Below are positions 16,012-22,078 of a stretch of 35,349 nucleotides of DNA, one piece after another (positions within the stretch are counted from its first letter, which is position 1; each line of letters starts with the position of its first letter). The position numbers and the translations under genes were made by a program. The DNA comes from Candidatus Doudnabacteria bacterium (GTDB taxonomy: Bacteria > Patescibacteriota > JABMPQ01 > JAGQLO01), in assembly GCA_020429185.1 (NCBI GenBank), contig JAGQLO010000012.1, forward strand, positions 1-35,349, read 5' to 3'. The notes under the pieces are model-generated. The model saw nothing but the letters and a program-made list of their open reading frames with translations. It searched no databases and was not told the origin of the DNA.

Positions 16012-18210
16012 TCAACGCCGAACTCGAAGTGAATTCAACACCACAGAAATAGACGAAAGAGCCATCGCTCCTGCCGCATAGGCAGGATGCAACAATCCAA
16101 ATGCGGCCACCGGAATGAGAACAAGATTATAGACAAACGCCCACCCCAAATTCTGCTTAATCAACCGCATCGTTACCCGCGAAATCTGGATTGCTTCTGT
16201 CGCCTTCAGTAAATCACCCTGAATCAACGTCATGCCAGCGACTTCACGTGCAATGTCTGTTCCGGCCCCCATTGCAATTCCCACATTGGCTTGTGCAAGA
16301 GCAGGTGCGTCGTTCACACCATCACCCACCATCGCCACTACCTCCCCTTCTTGTTGTAAGCGAGAAATAGCAGTCAGCTTTTCTTCCGGACGCATATCCG
16401 CAGTATACGTCTCAATACCCACCTCTGAAGCCACAGCACGCGCCGTAGCCTCTGCGTCCCCCGTAAGTAATGAACTCCGTATTCCCATCCGCTTCAGAAC
16501 TTGAACTGCTTCGGCAGACGTATCTTTTACAGGATCAGTAATAGCGAGCGCTCCAAGAAGGGCTTCTCCGCGAGACACAAACACAACGGTCTGTGCAGCA
16601 GCCTCAAGCACTTGTGCCTGTTTTTCAATCTCTTCAGGAACGGCAACCGAACGCTCCTTCATAAATCGCAAGCTTCCAATGGCGGCAGCCTCACCATTAA
16701 CGACCCCCTGAACACCCTGCCCCGTTACCGCCTCAAATGCCTCTACGGTCGAAGTAGTCACACCCTGCTCTTGTGCGTAGTTCAATACAGCAGACGCAAG
16801 TGGATGTTCAGAAGCAGATTCTAATGCTGCCGCAACAGAAAGCGTTTGAGTAGCATCACCCAGCACCTGGGTCACCGTAGGACTTCCCTGTGTGATCGTT
16901 CCCGTTTTGTCGAACACCATTACGGACGTGTTCCGAGCATGCTGAAGTGTTTCTGCGTCACGCACAAGAATGCCGCGCCGAGCTGCATTCCCAACACCTG
17001 TAATAACAGCGGTTGGCGTCGCAAGACCAAGAGCACATGGACATGCGACAACCAATACAGAAACCAGCACGAGCACTGCACCAGAAACATCTGCAAATCC
17101 ACCCAACCACCAAACGAAAAAGGTTCCAATGGCAATCAGAAGCAAGGCCGGAACAAACACCGCAGAAATGGTGTCTGCTAGCTTTTGAATCGGCGCCTTC
17201 GACATCTGAGCCTCCTCAACCATGCGCGTCATTTGAGAGAGAACAGAATCCAAACCCAAGCCTTCTGCTCGCAACACAAACGTTCCTCGTTGATTCAGTG
17301 TTCCCCCGATCACCGAAGCTCCTATCTCCTTTTGAACAGGAAAACTTTCTCCTGTAATCAGCGACTCATCAACAGAAGAAGATCCTTCAACAACAACTCC
17401 ATCTACAGGGACCTGCTCAGACGCCTTCACACGCACACGATCTCCTACCTTTAGTTCAGACACAGACACATCGCGCATGTCACCTCCTTCAAGTACAAGA
17501 TGTGCCACCTGAGGTTGTAGGCGCGACAACTCCTGAAGAGCTGCAGACGCGCGCCCCTTTGCACGAGACTCCAACAACCGTCCCAACGCTACAAGCGAAA
17601 CAATGGCAACAGACGCATCCAAGAACAACTCTGGCTCCGAATGAATCAAAAGCGACACAAAACTATACGCATACGCCGTTGTCGAACCCAACGCAATTAA
17701 CGTATCCATGTTAGCTCGACCCCGCTTCAGCGGCCCCCACATTCCTTTGTAAAAGGTAGCTCCCACAACAAACTGAACGGGTGTAGCAAGCAAAAGCGCA
17801 ATCCATCCTTCATACGGAACATCTACCCAAAACTGAAAGACAATCAAGACGGCGAGCACGAAGAGTGCACCCACAACGGCAACGAGGGTTTTGCGATAGG
17901 CAGAACTTCCAGCAGCTGGCGCATGATCATGTTCTCCATCCCCACCCTGATGTGCACGATCACTCATCTGACCTGAATGATCAGCAGCGGAACCACCCGA
18001 AGATGCAATCACATAATCACCAGCGCGGCTCGTTGCTTCTTGAAGCGTTTCGATTGCAAGAGGTTGCTCTGACTCAATCAATGCCGTTTCTGTCACGGCA
18101 TTCACCTTGGCAGAAAGAACGCCCGGCACATCTGCAAGTTCCTTCTCAATATTGACCGCGCACGAAGCGCAATGCATGTTCGCGATCGTGTAGGAGGAAG
18201 AATGAGACAT
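16012..18210 (-). CDS. copA: Copper-transporting P1B-type ATPase
   Basis: 732 residues with one N-terminal heavy-metal domain (NMHCASC, metal-binding Cys14 and Cys17), a His/Asp-rich linker (about 78-97), membrane helices, actuator motif TGES (286-289), intramembrane CPC (390-392, VACPCALGLATPT), phosphorylation motif DKTGT (434-438) and the hinge motif GDGVNDAPAL. The HMA-CPC combination assigns it to Cu(I)/Ag(I) export across the cytoplasmic membrane. It begins 8 nt after the cupredoxin gene stop and is the last gene of the five-gene minus-strand run from 21048. There is no CopY/CueR-type regulator nearby. Whether it serves detoxification or loads copper onto the exported cupredoxin cannot be told, but the gene order favours a shared extracytoplasmic copper role. 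Confidence 0.94.
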   Translation of the reverse strand: MSHSSSYTIANMHCASCAVNIEKELADVPGVLSAKVNAVTETALIESEQPLAIETLQEATSRAGDYVIASSGGSAADHSGQMSDRAHQGGDGEHDHAPAAGSSAYRKTLVAVVGALFVLAVLIVFQFWVDVPYEGWIALLLATPVQFVVGATFYKGMWGPLKRGRANMDTLIALGSTTAYAYSFVSLLIHSEPELFLDASVAIVSLVALGRLLESRAKGRASAALQELSRLQPQVAHLVLEGGDMRDVSVSELKVGDRVRVKASEQVPVDGVVVEGSSSVDESLITGESFPVQKEIGASVIGGTLNQRGTFVLRAEGLGLDSVLSQMTRMVEEAQMSKAPIQKLADTISAVFVPALLLIAIGTFFVWWLGGFADVSGAVLVLVSVLVVACPCALGLATPTAVITGVGNAARRGILVRDAETLQHARNTSVMVFDKTGTITQGSPTVTQVLGDATQTLSVAAALESASEHPLASAVLNYAQEQGVTTSTVEAFEAVTGQGVQGVVNGEAAAIGSLRFMKERSVAVPEEIEKQAQVLEAAAQTVVFVSRGEALLGALAITDPVKDTSAEAVQVLKRMGIRSSLLTGDAEATARAVASEVGIETYTADMRPEEKLTAISRLQQEGEVVAMVGDGVNDAPALAQANVGIAMGAGTDIAREVAGMTLIQGDLLKATEAIQISRVTMRLIKQNLGWAFVYNLVLIPVAAFGLLHPAYAAGAMALSSISVVLNSLRVRR

Positions 18211-18218
18211 ACACGCTA

Positions 18219-18758
18219 TTACTCAACACGAATCGTTCCTTTCATACGAAGGTGGCCGGAGCCACACTGAATGTTACAACCAGCTATGTAGTCTCCAGGA
18301 ACCAACGGAGCGATAAAGTCAGCCTCATTTACCGTTCCCGGCCGTGCAACAAAGTTCACAACACCATCTTCCAACGCAACGGAGAACGTATGCTCTACAT
18401 CACGAGAGGTGAATCGAAACTTCACCTGTTCACCCGGACTCAACACAATAAGGCTCGGCTCGTACCCCCACTGATACACCTCGATATCAACTACACGCAC
18501 CCCAGAATCGGTTTGTACACTTGAACTACTCTCAACAGATTCACTCGTTTCTATCTCGAGTTCATCAGATAATTCCTGCTCTCCTTTAGACGCATCCGAA
18601 GAGGAGAAACTCAATCCCTCCTCTTCGGATATCGATTCAACAACAGGTTCATCTTGTTCCTCATCCTGCAGAGATTCATTCTTAGACAGCACGCTAAACG
18701 CGACCACTATTCCAGTAGCGCACAGCAGAATGAATACAAGGAGAATGAGTCGTTTCAC
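18219..18758 (-). CDS. Membrane-anchored cupredoxin with a CuA-type site
   Basis: I use the GTG at 18758 (MKRLILLVF, a clean signal/anchor); a TTG 18 nt upstream is also open. After the anchor comes an acidic Ser/Glu-rich linker of about 65 residues, then a roughly 90-residue cupredoxin domain. Numbered from the upstream start, ligand positions are His129 (VEHTF) and Cys167, Cys171, His175, Met178 in GCNIQCGSGHLRM. The spacing C-x3-C-x3-H-x2-M is the CuA binuclear copper signature of cytochrome oxidase subunit II and nitrous-oxide reductase. No oxidase subunit I or heme gene is in the window. It is linked to copA by an 8-nt gap. Likely role: extracytoplasmic copper binding or electron transfer; partner unknown. 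Confidence 0.85.
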   Translation of the reverse strand: MKRLILLVFILLCATGIVVAFSVLSKNESLQDEEQDEPVVESISEEEGLSFSSSDASKGEQELSDELEIETSESVESSSSVQTDSGVRVVDIEVYQWGYEPSLIVLSPGEQVKFRFTSRDVEHTFSVALEDGVVNFVARPGTVNEADFIAPLVPGDYIAGCNIQCGSGHLRMKGTIRVE

Positions 18759-18803
18759 GTAGGTCGTCGTTATCAACTTCTAGACTAACACAACGGAACA
18801 CCC

Positions 18804-19649
18804 CTATTCAGACGCGAGCAGCTCCGAAACTTCCGCAAAGGAATCGAGTGGATACGCTCCTTCAACAAGACGTGCTGCTCCAGTTGACTGATCTACCACA
18901 ATATTACCAGGCGTTCCGGTAACACCGTATGAAGCCCCCTCTTCCATGTCAGCCAACACGCGGTCTTCATACTTCCCTGAATCGATACAGGAATTAAACG
19001 CAGTAAGATTTGTTACCCCCGCCTCTCGTGCGAGCGCATCCCAATTCTCTTCACGCGGAAGACCTGTTCCGTTCGACTTCGTCTCTTCAAAGTATCGATC
19101 GGTGAATATCCAGAATCCATCATTCCCTGCAAGTTCCGCCACACACTCAGATGCCTCTGCAGCCTTCTGTGCATCTTCGTGGAAATCAAGCGGGTAATGT
19201 CGATACACCCACGCAACTGACTTCCCATCTATTCCCTGGTCAACAAGCTCTTGCGCTGTATCATGAAACTTCTGACAAAACGGACACTCAAAATCAGAAT
19301 ACTCAACAAGTAAGAGATCAGCGTCACGATCGCCACGTACATGATCATCTTCCCGGATAACAACCTCTCCAGTGACTTCTGGATACGGATCTGGAAGAAC
19401 GCCCGAGTCTTCTACAAACGTACTATCTGAATCATTGGTAGGAGTCGTAGACGCCGTAGAGCCATTCCGAATTCCAAAAAAGAGGAATAGGAACACAAAC
19501 AGTACCGCTGAAAGCAGCAATGCCCCACACATCATCCCCACGCGAAACGCGAGACGAGAGGCCATACGATCAATAAGACCGCGCATGGTTGATGCATTCA
19601 GGTCTTCACTCTTCGATTCAGTCTTCATATCTTTTTGTTCTCCATTCAT
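18804..19649 (-). CDS. Membrane-anchored DsbA-like thiol-disulfide oxidoreductase
   Basis: 281 residues: an N-terminal cytoplasmic stretch, a membrane helix (about 37-60), a Ser/Thr-rich linker, then a thioredoxin-fold DsbA/BdbD-like domain with EYSDFECPFCQKFH (active-site CPFC, 122-125) and the cis-proline loop VTGTPGNIVV. DsbA-like proteins with CPFC form or shuffle disulfides in exported proteins. It starts 11 nt after the DUF1573 gene and precedes the cupredoxin, whose two cysteines must be reduced to accept copper, so a role in maturing these neighbours is reasonable inference. A second ATG seven codons in is a possible alternative start. No DsbB or VKOR partner is visible. Confidence 0.88.
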   Translation of the reverse strand: MNGEQKDMKTESKSEDLNASTMRGLIDRMASRLAFRVGMMCGALLLSAVLFVFLFLFFGIRNGSTASTTPTNDSDSTFVEDSGVLPDPYPEVTGEVVIREDDHVRGDRDADLLLVEYSDFECPFCQKFHDTAQELVDQGIDGKSVAWVYRHYPLDFHEDAQKAAEASECVAELAGNDGFWIFTDRYFEETKSNGTGLPREENWDALAREAGVTNLTAFNSCIDSGKYEDRVLADMEEGASYGVTGTPGNIVVDQSTGAARLVEGAYPLDSFAEVSELLASE

Positions 19650-19660
19650 AGTAGTTATTC

Positions 19661-20617
19661 TTAATCAACATGTGGTCCCTGAAGGGTGTACGCTTCTGGA
19701 CCTAGATCCAAATCGATCTCTGCCCAAATCTTTACCTCTGCATCTGCTTGATCTCCCGCCGTTTCGAGTACCACCGACTTGTAAAACCTTCCTTCTGGTT
19801 CTTCATGAAGGTTCGGATCAAACACAACTGTTAGCACGCCCGTATCTCCAGATGCAAAGCTTGTACGATCAACAGAACCGGTTGTACAAGCACAGCTTCC
19901 CACAACATTCTCAATCTCCACCACTCCCTCTCCGTTGTATTGGAACGGAAAGTCGTGTGTCACCAGACCTCCACTTTGCAACACAACACCAAAGTCGTGT
20001 TCTATGTCAGCAAACTGGAACGGGCCTTCCTCAACATCGAACTGTGCCTCAACAGCTACAGGAGTCATCTCTTCATACGCAGCCACGGAAACAACTTCAC
20101 CGGTAAACGTAAGAGACACAACGGAACCATTTGGAACGCGTGAGTCTTCTTCGGCAACCGCCCCGTCCGGAGCAGCGCTCGTAAAGACATCAACCGTTCG
20201 ACGAATCGAACCCGTTCCCTCTGGTCCATGTGCTAACGGATCAAACACGGCTCGAACTTGGAAGGATTCCCCTGGAGCAACAACCTCTGAGTAGCCATCA
20301 AGGGAAGTGTGCATACCAAATACTGGAGAGATTGCCTCCGCCGTCTCAATGGTTGTTGTTGTACACATACACGAAGTCTGCGCACCACGAACCTCAAGCG
20401 GCTCACTCGATGTGTTCTGCAACTCGAACACATGTTCTACATTACCTCCCTCAATATTGATTACACCGAAGTCATGTGAGACAGCCTGCGCTGAAGCAAC
20501 TGTTCCAGACGGCCATCCTTCAACCTCTTCTCCAGCAAACCGCGAAACAAGCGTAACGCTTACTAACACGATAGCGACCACAAAGAGCCCTACCGCAACC
20601 ATAAATCGTTTTGTCAT
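19661..20617 (-). CDS. Exported protein with two DUF1573 domains
   Basis: 318 residues: N-terminal membrane anchor or signal (about 5-26), then two DUF1573-type Ig-like domains. Domain 1 has SHDFGVINIEGG, VFELQNTSSEPLEV and the Cys pair SCMCTTT (Cys83, Cys85); domain 2 has EHDFGVVLQSGG, VEIENVVGSCACTTG (Cys242, Cys244) and the VVFDPN ending block. The paired S-C-x-C-T in both domains is a family hallmark and a plausible Cu(I) or disulfide site. The function of DUF1573 is not established. It sits between the Cys/His-rich exported protein and the DsbA-like protein. TAGAAT ends 6 nt before the ATG, so this gene may also be expressed from a leaderless internal promoter. Confidence 0.85.
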   Translation of the reverse strand: MTKRFMVAVGLFVVAIVLVSVTLVSRFAGEEVEGWPSGTVASAQAVSHDFGVINIEGGNVEHVFELQNTSSEPLEVRGAQTSCMCTTTTIETAEAISPVFGMHTSLDGYSEVVAPGESFQVRAVFDPLAHGPEGTGSIRRTVDVFTSAAPDGAVAEEDSRVPNGSVVSLTFTGEVVSVAAYEEMTPVAVEAQFDVEEGPFQFADIEHDFGVVLQSGGLVTHDFPFQYNGEGVVEIENVVGSCACTTGSVDRTSFASGDTGVLTVVFDPNLHEEPEGRFYKSVVLETAGDQADAEVKIWAEIDLDLGPEAYTLQGPHVD

Positions 20618-20623
20618 ACATAC

Positions 20624-20629
20624 ATTCTA
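20624..20629 (-). promoter_or_regulatory. -10 (TAGAAT) at leaderless distance from the DUF1573 gene
   Basis: TAGAAT on the minus strand, 6 nt before the ATG at 20617. No good -35 is seen. Confidence 0.45.
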
Positions 20630-20661
20630 CAGATCTAACACCGTCAGAACGGAAGAATGCA

Positions 20662-21048
20662 TCACTCACGCAACACAAGAACATGTGTAGAAACGGGTGT
20701 AATCGGAACACGATCAATAGTACGCACATCGGCAGCTGCTATCACCAACGTACGAACGGGCACAAACGGAACGACAAGCGCGACAACTTTGGTAACAACA
20801 GGAACAGAAATAGACTCAACCGGATCGGAGACTGGTTGTTGCAAACAATGAAACGCACACTGCTCTTGCACACTTCTACACGCCTCTCCCTCACAGTGTG
20901 AACTGTGCCCCATCTCAGAAGAAGGATGTACAACAATGCCCAACGCATCTGCCTGAGGTACCGCAACAGATCCAGCCATTGGCAACACAAACGCTGCCGA
21001 AAGTACGGCAACAACAGACACGCGAATAATGGCCTTCCAGGTCTTCAT
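20662..21048 (-). CDS. Small exported Cys/His-rich protein, candidate metal binder
   Basis: No family recognised. The ATG at 21048 gives 128 residues with a signal peptide ending near PQADA. A mature N-terminal segment follows in which MGHSSHCEGEACRSVQEQC and then AFHC concentrate Met, His and four Cys in about 25 residues, a composition seen in copper- or zinc-binding peptides. The second half is hydrophobic and Val-rich, possibly a membrane segment. It is the first gene of the minus-strand run leading to copA, and its metal-ligand content fits that setting (inference). TATGCT ends 7 nt before the ATG, so the mRNA is probably leaderless. The longer open frame to 21144 runs into repeat copy C and its hairpin and is rejected. 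Confidence 0.7.
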   Translation of the reverse strand: MKTWKAIIRVSVVAVLSAAFVLPMAGSVAVPQADALGIVVHPSSEMGHSSHCEGEACRSVQEQCAFHCLQQPVSDPVESISVPVVTKVVALVVPFVPVRTLVIAAADVRTIDRVPITPVSTHVLVLRE

Positions 21049-21061: not shown

Positions 21062-21081
21062 GCGCGGAACACAAGCAACAC

Positions 21082-21101
21082 AAAACACCCCTCTCGGGGT
21101 G
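21082..21101 (-). terminator. Terminator hairpin inside repeat copy C
   Basis: CACCCC-GAGA-GGGGTG followed by TTTTG on the minus strand, identical to the stem at 14738-14753. No minus-strand gene lies just upstream of it, so what it terminates is unclear. Confidence 0.75.
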
Positions 21102-21150
21102 CCTCGTCATGGCTCCGAACTGTGAAGGAGGTTAGAGCCGCCATTAGAGC
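21082..21150 (-). repeat. Dispersed repeat, copy C
   Basis: Minus strand: AATGGCGGCTCTAACCTCC, TTCACAGTTCGGAGCCATG, ACGAGG and the CACCCC hairpin. It matches copy A from TTCACAG through the hairpin with a single visible mismatch in the block before the hairpin. Confidence 0.75.
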
Positions 21151-21378: not shown

Positions 21379-21406
21379 TTGACAAAATATATAAGTGTGC
21401 TATTAT
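21379..21406 (+). promoter_or_regulatory. Strong promoter of the GC-rich gene at 21557
   Basis: TTGACA (21379-21384), 16-nt spacer, TATTAT (21401-21406), in an AT-rich setting. The predicted leader is about 145 nt long. Confidence 0.75.
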
Positions 21407-21420
21407 GTATATAGCACACT
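21394..21420. promoter_or_regulatory. 27-bp palindromic operator overlapping the -10
   Basis: Perfect 10-bp arms AGTGTGCTAT and ATAGCACACT separated by TATGTAT. It covers the -10 and start region, the classic position for a dimeric repressor. No regulator gene is adjacent. Confidence 0.7.
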
Positions 21421-21556: not shown

Positions 21557-22078
21557 ATGAAGACCGAGTACACGACCGCCTGCGGCTGCACCATTCACCT
21601 GCTGCCCCACACCATCGAGCACCTGAAGGCCCACCCCGAGGCCTCGGATCTGCTCGGCGAGGCGATCGGCAAGGTGGAACTGCCTGAGGGCACGTTCTAC
21701 CTCAAGTCGATCGACATGGGGCGCGTGATCGGGCAGTCGGCCCTGGTGAACGCCACGGTGGTGAAGCCCTCCGAGACGTGCACGTTCGCGTACCGCGCCG
21801 GCCGCGACATCCCGTCCCGGGTCGTCCTCGACGTCGAGAAGCCGCAGACCAACCTCTTCACGGTCATCGCCGGCTACGACAACGAGAGCGAGCGCTGGGT
21901 GCTCTACACCGGGTTCGCGGGCACGAGCGCGGCCAAGGAGCCCACCGACCCCAGCCTCGAAGGCAACAACGAGGACGAGCTGGACTTCTGGTGCCGCCAC
22001 GCGCTGGTGCACGACGAGAGCTGCACGCAGCCCTTCGAGAGCACCTGGAACGAGGTGATCGCGAGCGCGGCCGAGTAG
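21557..22078 (+). CDS. Solitary, strongly GC-rich small protein; possible toxin-like nuclease fold
   Basis: No family recognised with certainty. The 173-residue acidic cytoplasmic protein has an N-terminal Cys pair (TACGCTIHLL), then PHTIEHLKAHPEA followed by a helix and KVELPEG. In the C-terminal half FTVIAGY and RWVLYTGFAG occur, then FWCRHALVHDESC. The order HxxxH/HP segment, predicted strand, and final W-x-L-x-T-x-F-x-G strand is reminiscent of RelE/colicin-D-like phage nucleases, but this is pattern-level only and no catalytic set is proven. Almost every early codon ends in G or C, unlike all neighbours, and it has its own promoter, palindromic operator, structured leader, Shine-Dalgarno and terminator. 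I infer recent transfer or an independently controlled accessory gene. No antitoxin-like partner is adjacent. Confidence 0.8.
   Translation: MKTEYTTACGCTIHLLPHTIEHLKAHPEASDLLGEAIGKVELPEGTFYLKSIDMGRVIGQSALVNATVVKPSETCTFAYRAGRDIPSRVVLDVEKPQTNLFTVIAGYDNESERWVLYTGFAGTSAAKEPTDPSLEGNNEDELDFWCRHALVHDESCTQPFESTWNEVIASAAE

Follow-up and report, generated by a model that had tools for sequence, protein, structure and literature searches.

The window (the whole stretch of 35,349 nucleotides that was analysed) carries at positions 20662-21048, on the minus strand, an open reading frame (ORF) that translates into a leader peptide of 128 amino acids followed by a TGA stop codon. This leader heads a run of genes on the same strand that encode a DUF1573 protein, a DsbA-like thioredoxin, a cupredoxin/COX2-like protein and a CopA-type ATPase. 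The features of the locus are the following:

20662..21048, minus strand: leader peptide ORF, 128 aa plus TGA (from the translation; relatives found by search)
20944..21048, minus strand: signal-like N-terminus, residues 1-35, ending in ADA (by eye; a hydrophobic N-terminus is also seen in relatives)
20845..20895, minus strand: Cys/His cluster C52-x4-C57-x6-C64-AFH-C68 (C64 and C68 invariant in 23 aligned leaders)
20845-20859, minus strand: CxxxC core (C64-C68) of the window leader, within the Cys/His cluster
20665..20691, minus strand: C-terminal tail STHVLVLRE, abutting the TGA stop (20662-20664); putative ribosome-arrest site, proposed from the tail tallies
20621..20661, minus strand: RNA hairpin with an 8-bp outer stem, directly 3' of the TGA and 3 nt short of the DUF1573 ATG
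19661..20617, minus strand: DUF1573 protein with two DUF1573/Ig-like stretches, first gene after the leader (Pfam PF07610)
18804..19649, minus strand: DsbA-like membrane thioredoxin (Pfam PF13462, PF01323)
18219..18776, minus strand: cupredoxin/COX2-like exported protein (PF13473, PF00116, NF041074 and TIGR02866, all below cut-off)
16012..18210, minus strand: CopA-type copper P-type ATPase with an HMA domain (TIGR01511 above the NCBIfam cut-off; Pfam)

The sequence-only reading had placed copA four genes downstream of the leader, and the copA gene (16012-18210) is the fourth gene, past those of the DUF1573, thioredoxin and cupredoxin-like proteins. The DUF1573 and thioredoxin proteins (18804-20617) also gave matches below the cut-offs to the NCBIfam (seleno)protein models OS_HP2 (NF041425) and Rcas_1661 (NF041057). 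On the other side of the leader, a terminator-like hairpin lies on the minus strand at 21080-21107, about 30 nt upstream of the leader start codon, where it could act as an upstream terminator or as a further element of control. The divergent gene at 21557-22078 is preceded by a strong sigma70-like promoter (TTGACA-16-TATTAT), the -10 box of which is overlapped by a perfect inverted repeat at 21394-21420 (AGTGTGCTA-N9-TAGCACACT). This repeat was considered as a shared operator and rejected, as it occurs as a single copy in the genome when up to 3 mismatches are allowed.

Residues 41-68 of the window leader (HPSSEMGHSSHCEGEACRSVQEQCAFHC) contain four Cys, four His and one Met in 28 residues, so that the Cys/His richness noted in the earlier reading is borne out and its "several Met" was an overstatement. 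The cluster starts about six residues past the signal-like segment (ADA, residues 33-35, delineated by eye), in agreement with the earlier description of an exported peptide with its cluster right after the signal peptide; in the leaders at large the hydrophobic N-terminus was judged by eye together with a simple script count. A further stretch of about 60 residues separates the cluster from the C-terminal tail. The window leader matched no Pfam family and no NCBIfam family, no PDB sequence matched the leader profile at E up to 1, and a tRNA was the only Rfam match over the window. An AlphaFold model calculated from a six-sequence alignment (pLDDT 50.7, pTM 0.15) contained a helix at residues 3-18 only and no predicted fold, although so shallow an alignment makes this weak evidence.

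Relatives were collected within the phylum of the window, yielding a tally of 44 leaders in 44 genomes, in which CxxxC was a selection filter and its presence in 44/44 is therefore expected. A single-sequence search of 58 relatives of the window genome gave one further borderline match, G043, which contains a leader of the same plan; the matches L004, L005 and L007 were rejected on reading. A two-sequence profile (window and G043) matched nine genomes among 59 relatives of G043. Against 72 genomes from the order to which G395 belongs, a nine-row profile gave matches in 22, and a leader was read in all 22. L017 and L051 were rejected as leaders on reading. A second leader copy in G395 (L050, G395:C48), with a CLDHC site and located behind an HMA-like protein, reaches the contig end without a stop codon and does not enter the tally. 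Applied to 379 genomes sampled evenly across the phylum, the nine-row profile gave 12 matches with E no higher than 0.05; the window and G043 alone held up, and the other ten (L019-L028) displayed no leader when scanned.

Neighbouring genes were also used as anchors. Of the 379 sampled genomes, 158 encode the HMA-DsbD_2-cupredoxin fusion (e.g. L002:3-1337), and scanning 29 of 30 listed fusion loci identified five leaders by the CxxxC filter (G304, G262, G233, G299 and G187); at least 22 of the 29 are without a leader by this filter, which is blind to C-x4-C forms, and the fusion loci of G146 and G107, which it missed, are adjoined by C-x4-C leaders. DUF1573, which 45 of 379 genomes contain, gave 30 listed loci when used in the same way, and the CxxxC filter found a leader in none of the 29 outside the window, indicating that the leader does not simply accompany DUF1573. 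A three-leader profile (G233, G299 and G187) matched 15 of 96 genomes, eight of which pass the CxxxC filter; L119 (G187) had already been counted, L125 and L128 were not resolved, and L126, L127, L130 and L131 were excluded from the 44. These four are leader-like sequences with C-x4-C rather than CxxxC and the same type of tail (e.g. TIVLRQ, TVVLRQ). A 23-row profile matched 11 of 144 genomes, adding ten new leaders to G043. Scanning contigs with a five-row alignment returned five loci, all from Candidatus Uhrbacteria and in the same genomes as five already collected; five of the 44 leaders are identical to leaders of Candidatus Uhrbacteria, which NCBI places in the Patescibacteria group. No relative of the leader was found in the viral contigs searched, and no account of such leaders in the Patescibacteria group was found in open-access papers, a scope outside which most subscription papers and preprints fall.

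In all 44 cases the gene after the leader is on the same strand, and was of the HMA and/or DsbD_2 type in 33, DUF1573 in nine and DUF411-like in two, these classes having been assigned by eye with nine proteins checked against Pfam. The next genes of G409 and G423, counted within the 33, are CopA-type ATPases by Pfam, and behind the leader of G614 (tail NTVILRE) come genes for an HMA-DsbD_2-cupredoxin protein and for a CopA-like ATPase; three ORFs of G395 that were tested had no Pfam match. DUF1573 itself is not a copper family, and in that group the link to copper comes from three loci: the window has CopA, G590 carries a multicopper oxidase farther along, and in G420 an HMA fusion adjoins the pair. 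The nearest system to that of the window is G590, with the leader tail ETVILLE, a DUF1573 protein 49% identical to that of the window over 291 residues and, upstream of the leader in that genome, a thioredoxin 39% identical over 165 residues. Metal-handling neighbours and Cys spacing, for which a check in homologues had been proposed at the outset, are thus both retained in the relatives.

CxxxC lies at a distance of 56-67 residues from the last residue (mean 61.1, sd 2.5), and of 58-63 in 37 of the 44 leaders. This range is partly filtered, because some of the leaders were gathered by scripts set to a spacing of 45-80 residues; the first 23 leaders, read without a spacing filter, gave the same picture. 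In the main group of 25 leaders this distance was 61.7 +/- 2.6 residues, whereas that from the chosen start to CxxxC was more variable (57.4 +/- 7.7). In the 23-row alignment C64 and C68 are invariant. Across the leaders at large the residues between CxxxC and the tail are hardly alike. Right-anchored identity across the 25 leaders was 37% over the last eight residues versus 8% at positions -12 to -50. The final residue in this group was Glu in 19 and Asp in six, and the penultimate residue was Arg in 23 of 25, while none of the last 15 columns rose above 10/25 in 2000 shuffles. Among all 44 leaders the final residue was E in 25, D in six, N in five, Q in four, L in two and V in two, the penultimate Arg was present in 36 and absent in eight, and 32 end in Arg, then E/D/N/Q, then the stop, counts to be read in the light of related, non-independent sequences and of a collection that partly employed profiles including the tail or the 45-80 residue spacing filter. 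The codons used at the tail in 28 leaders comprised all six for Arg, both for Glu and both for Asp, followed by TAA (15), TGA (10) or TAG (3), which indicates that selection acts there on the peptide and not on the RNA. The tail matches no known arrest motif. Since Cys spacing and C-terminal tail alike persist in relatives from distant genomes, as does the location before metal-handling genes, the Cys/His cluster is more than a chance composition.

These features bear on the function first proposed for the peptide, that of a periplasmic-type copper carrier. A mature exported peptide of this kind, whether carrier or sponge, would bind Cu(I) through its Cys/His cluster and hand it to, or shield, the downstream machinery, as four Cys and four His past a signal-like segment and neighbours of copper type might suggest; CutF was itself first mistaken for a copper chaperone, according to the accessible text of one report (PMC9426467). 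However, the roughly 60 residues behind the cluster are hardly conserved although this stretch has a fixed length and ends in a conserved C-terminus, no fold was predicted by AlphaFold, the leader precedes several unrelated partner families, and a carrier would leave unexplained the hairpin at the stop codon described below. The carrier is therefore not favoured and we consider it unlikely, as the spacing, the tail, the hairpin at the stop and the varied downstream families fit a regulatory leader. In particular, a fixed distance over diverged sequence, together with a conserved C-terminus and a hairpin at the stop, is hard to reconcile with a mature carrier and is expected of a chain that is read across the ribosome and the Sec channel.

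RNA folding around the stop codon was assessed in 50-nt segments at 17 offsets for 27 leaders. The mean z was -3.15 at offset 0, where 19 of 27 leaders were below -2, -0.89 at offset -15, and between -0.29 and +0.42 at the remaining offsets. A hairpin with z below -2 starting no more than 4 nt from the stop was present in 17 of 27 leaders versus 12 of 232 controls (Fisher p 1.5e-12), and a U-tract (at least 7 T in 12 nt) followed the hairpin in 21 of 27 leaders versus 20 of 225 controls, the controls being 232 mechanical ORFs of at least 180 codons from the same loci and not curated genes. The arm sequences differ among leaders (e.g. ACACGAAA, CGCGAG, TGCGAAA, AGCCGGGCGG), and in 26 leaders the 5' arms pair far better with their own 3' side than with that of other leaders, a result equalled in none of 20000 permutations. 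Among 43 testable leaders, 33 had z below -2 over 50 or 70 nt; in the other ten no hairpin reached this value at either length, and G423 has none whatever. G379 was excluded from the fold counts owing to N in its intergenic region, and G401 was also excluded from the cross-pairing test.

A terminator-like hairpin with a U-tract in most relatives could also belong to an ordinary small gene with an intrinsic terminator that fixes a ratio, yielding much copper-binding peptide and less downstream protein without any sensing. Against this, the hairpin begins at the stop codon itself and not at a loose distance from it, the tail is kept at the peptide level, and the U-tract is absent from the window copy, so that we regard such a ratio-setting arrangement as very improbable. 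The window hairpin is weaker than in the relatives (z -1.5 over 60 nt, -1.9 and -2.6 over 50 nt, -0.3 over 70 nt; -2.5 once the stop codon is added, when 5 of 200 shuffles were equally stable), and its position relative to the stop agrees with theirs. It is followed by only 3 T in 12 nt, and DUF1573 in the window has no evident Shine-Dalgarno sequence. Lacking a U-tract, the window hairpin is read as one that would block initiation rather than terminate transcription.

Taken together, the comparisons indicate that the window peptide is probably a cis-acting leader that senses extracytoplasmic copper during its own synthesis, for which we infer that the chain is exported, binds copper and arrests the ribosome, as well as the direction in which the operon responds; an exported copper-sensing leader peptide is thus the probable identity of this ORF.

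The leader was compared with known regulators of related design. TnaC is a non-exported peptide that senses free tryptophan in the ribosome and acts on Rho; it arrests at the stop codon and has an Arg before its last residue. The present leaders resemble it in the penultimate Arg and, putatively, in arrest at the stop codon that controls downstream genes, and differ in that TnaC is not exported, responds to free tryptophan and works through Rho. Control of downstream genes by arrest on the TnaC leader peptide is documented (PMC8429421), here in the text available for that source.

Closer in function are CutF of Rhodobacter capsulatus and the CutF-like proteins, which the accessible part of their report describes as small exported peptides that head copper operons and sense copper on the nascent exported chain (PMC9973294). 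CutF is a DUF2946 member with a proline-rich, stalling-like end, its CxxxC lies 45 aa from the conserved C-terminus, and a stem-loop is located between the leader and the next gene (PMC9973294). The present leaders share with it the head of a copper operon, a putatively exported Cys peptide, a set CxxxC-to-end spacing and a stem-loop before the next gene, and the window hairpin that abuts the DUF1573 start codon can be likened to the initiation-blocking hairpin arrangement described for CutF and cutO (PMC9973294). They differ from it in having no DUF2946 match, no proline-rich end, a spacing of about 60 residues, a tail that ends at the stop codon and a hairpin placed at that stop and usually terminator-like; the host group, Patescibacteria, is also not among the phyla named for CutF-like proteins in the accessible text of that report. 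CopL and CzcI, for which cis action is suspected (PMC9973294), are likewise small exported metal-site proteins at the head of metal operons, a likeness by description only, as given in that text.

CruR of Bordetella pertussis is, in the accessible portion of its report, an exported Cys peptide that heads copper operons and responds to copper on the nascent chain, with a conserved spacing between its CXXC metal site and a C-terminal RAPP motif, and with Rho-dependent termination in a 162-nt gap, whereby copper turns the genes off (PMC9426467). Its arrest in vitro is reported in the part consulted of a further paper (PMC12992588), and the spacing from metal motif to C-terminus is 45 in both CutF and CruR according to the sections seen of their reports (PMC9973294, PMC9426467). 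With CruR the present leaders have in common the putatively exported Cys peptide, the copper-operon head, the conserved spacing and, presumptively, the nascent-chain response, and they differ in their CxxxC, the lack of RAPP at the end and the hairpin with U-tract. Membership in DUF2946 (Pfam PF11162) or the CutF-CruR family was rejected: the window peptide matched no family, the genome of the window contained no DUF2946 match, and one of 23 leaders matched at E 0.71 only; in NCBIfam the 23 leaders gave unrelated weak matches alone, to four families. RAPP/RGPP is absent from the window peptide and occurs within the last 60 residues of two of the 44 leaders (G435, G386), and PP within the last 12 residues of two (G434, L129). 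A Cys metal motif (CxxxC) in the putative exported part and a set spacing to the C-terminus are both found, the latter at a value unlike 45. The comparison points to a leader family that would work like CutF and CruR yet fails the DUF2946 family tests, the sensing logic being deduced by analogy.

The direct outcome of this analysis is a peptide family with a fixed spacing, a conserved tail, a hairpin in a defined position, a U-tract and characteristic downstream genes. A possible mechanism, advanced tentatively, is that these leaders form an undescribed copper-sensing family of the Patescibacteria, in which a metal-loaded, half-exported chain would use its tail of Arg, acid or amide residue and stop to halt the ribosome at the stop codon of the leader itself, and the parked ribosome would directly block the intrinsic terminator (in the window, the initiation-blocking hairpin) that begins there; it might then be the first metal-responsive attenuator of this kind. 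In the probable cis-acting leader reading, the signal sequence would bring the translating ribosome to the Sec channel. Once the stop codon is reached, the CxxxC/CxxHC site would be about 60 residues away, roughly the length of the tunnel and the channel, and would just be emerging outside. Copper at the Cys/His site would alter the pull on the nascent chain, and the conserved C-terminal tail (VLVLRE-stop in the window) would keep the ribosome at the stop codon, where it would mask the 5' arm of the hairpin. In most relatives the intrinsic terminator would thereby be prevented from forming and transcription would continue into the metal genes, while in the window, where the U-tract is absent, the DUF1573 start codon would be freed.

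The opposite direction of response, in which copper relieves the arrest and switches off an operon of acquisition genes, is counted as a share within the cis-acting leader reading. CruR itself acts in this way, as far as the accessible text of its report describes (PMC9426467), and HMA-DsbD_2-cupredoxin proteins could serve copper delivery and not efflux. However, the CopA-type ATPases in the window operon and in G409, G423 and G614, together with the multicopper oxidase in G590, look more like detoxification, and a response in the CruR direction appears highly improbable. A cis-acting leader that would switch the metal genes on thus remains the preferred reading.

To our knowledge, the Patescibacteria group represents a huge and mostly uncultured share of bacterial diversity, the regulation of which is experimentally almost unknown. 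If the proposed mechanism holds, these reduced genomes would use the ribosome and the Sec channel as a gauge of outside copper, without a dedicated receptor, and the family would provide a new type of arrest tail at a stop codon as well as ready-made copper switches. The finding also cautions against labelling such Cys-rich exported peptides as copper chaperones.
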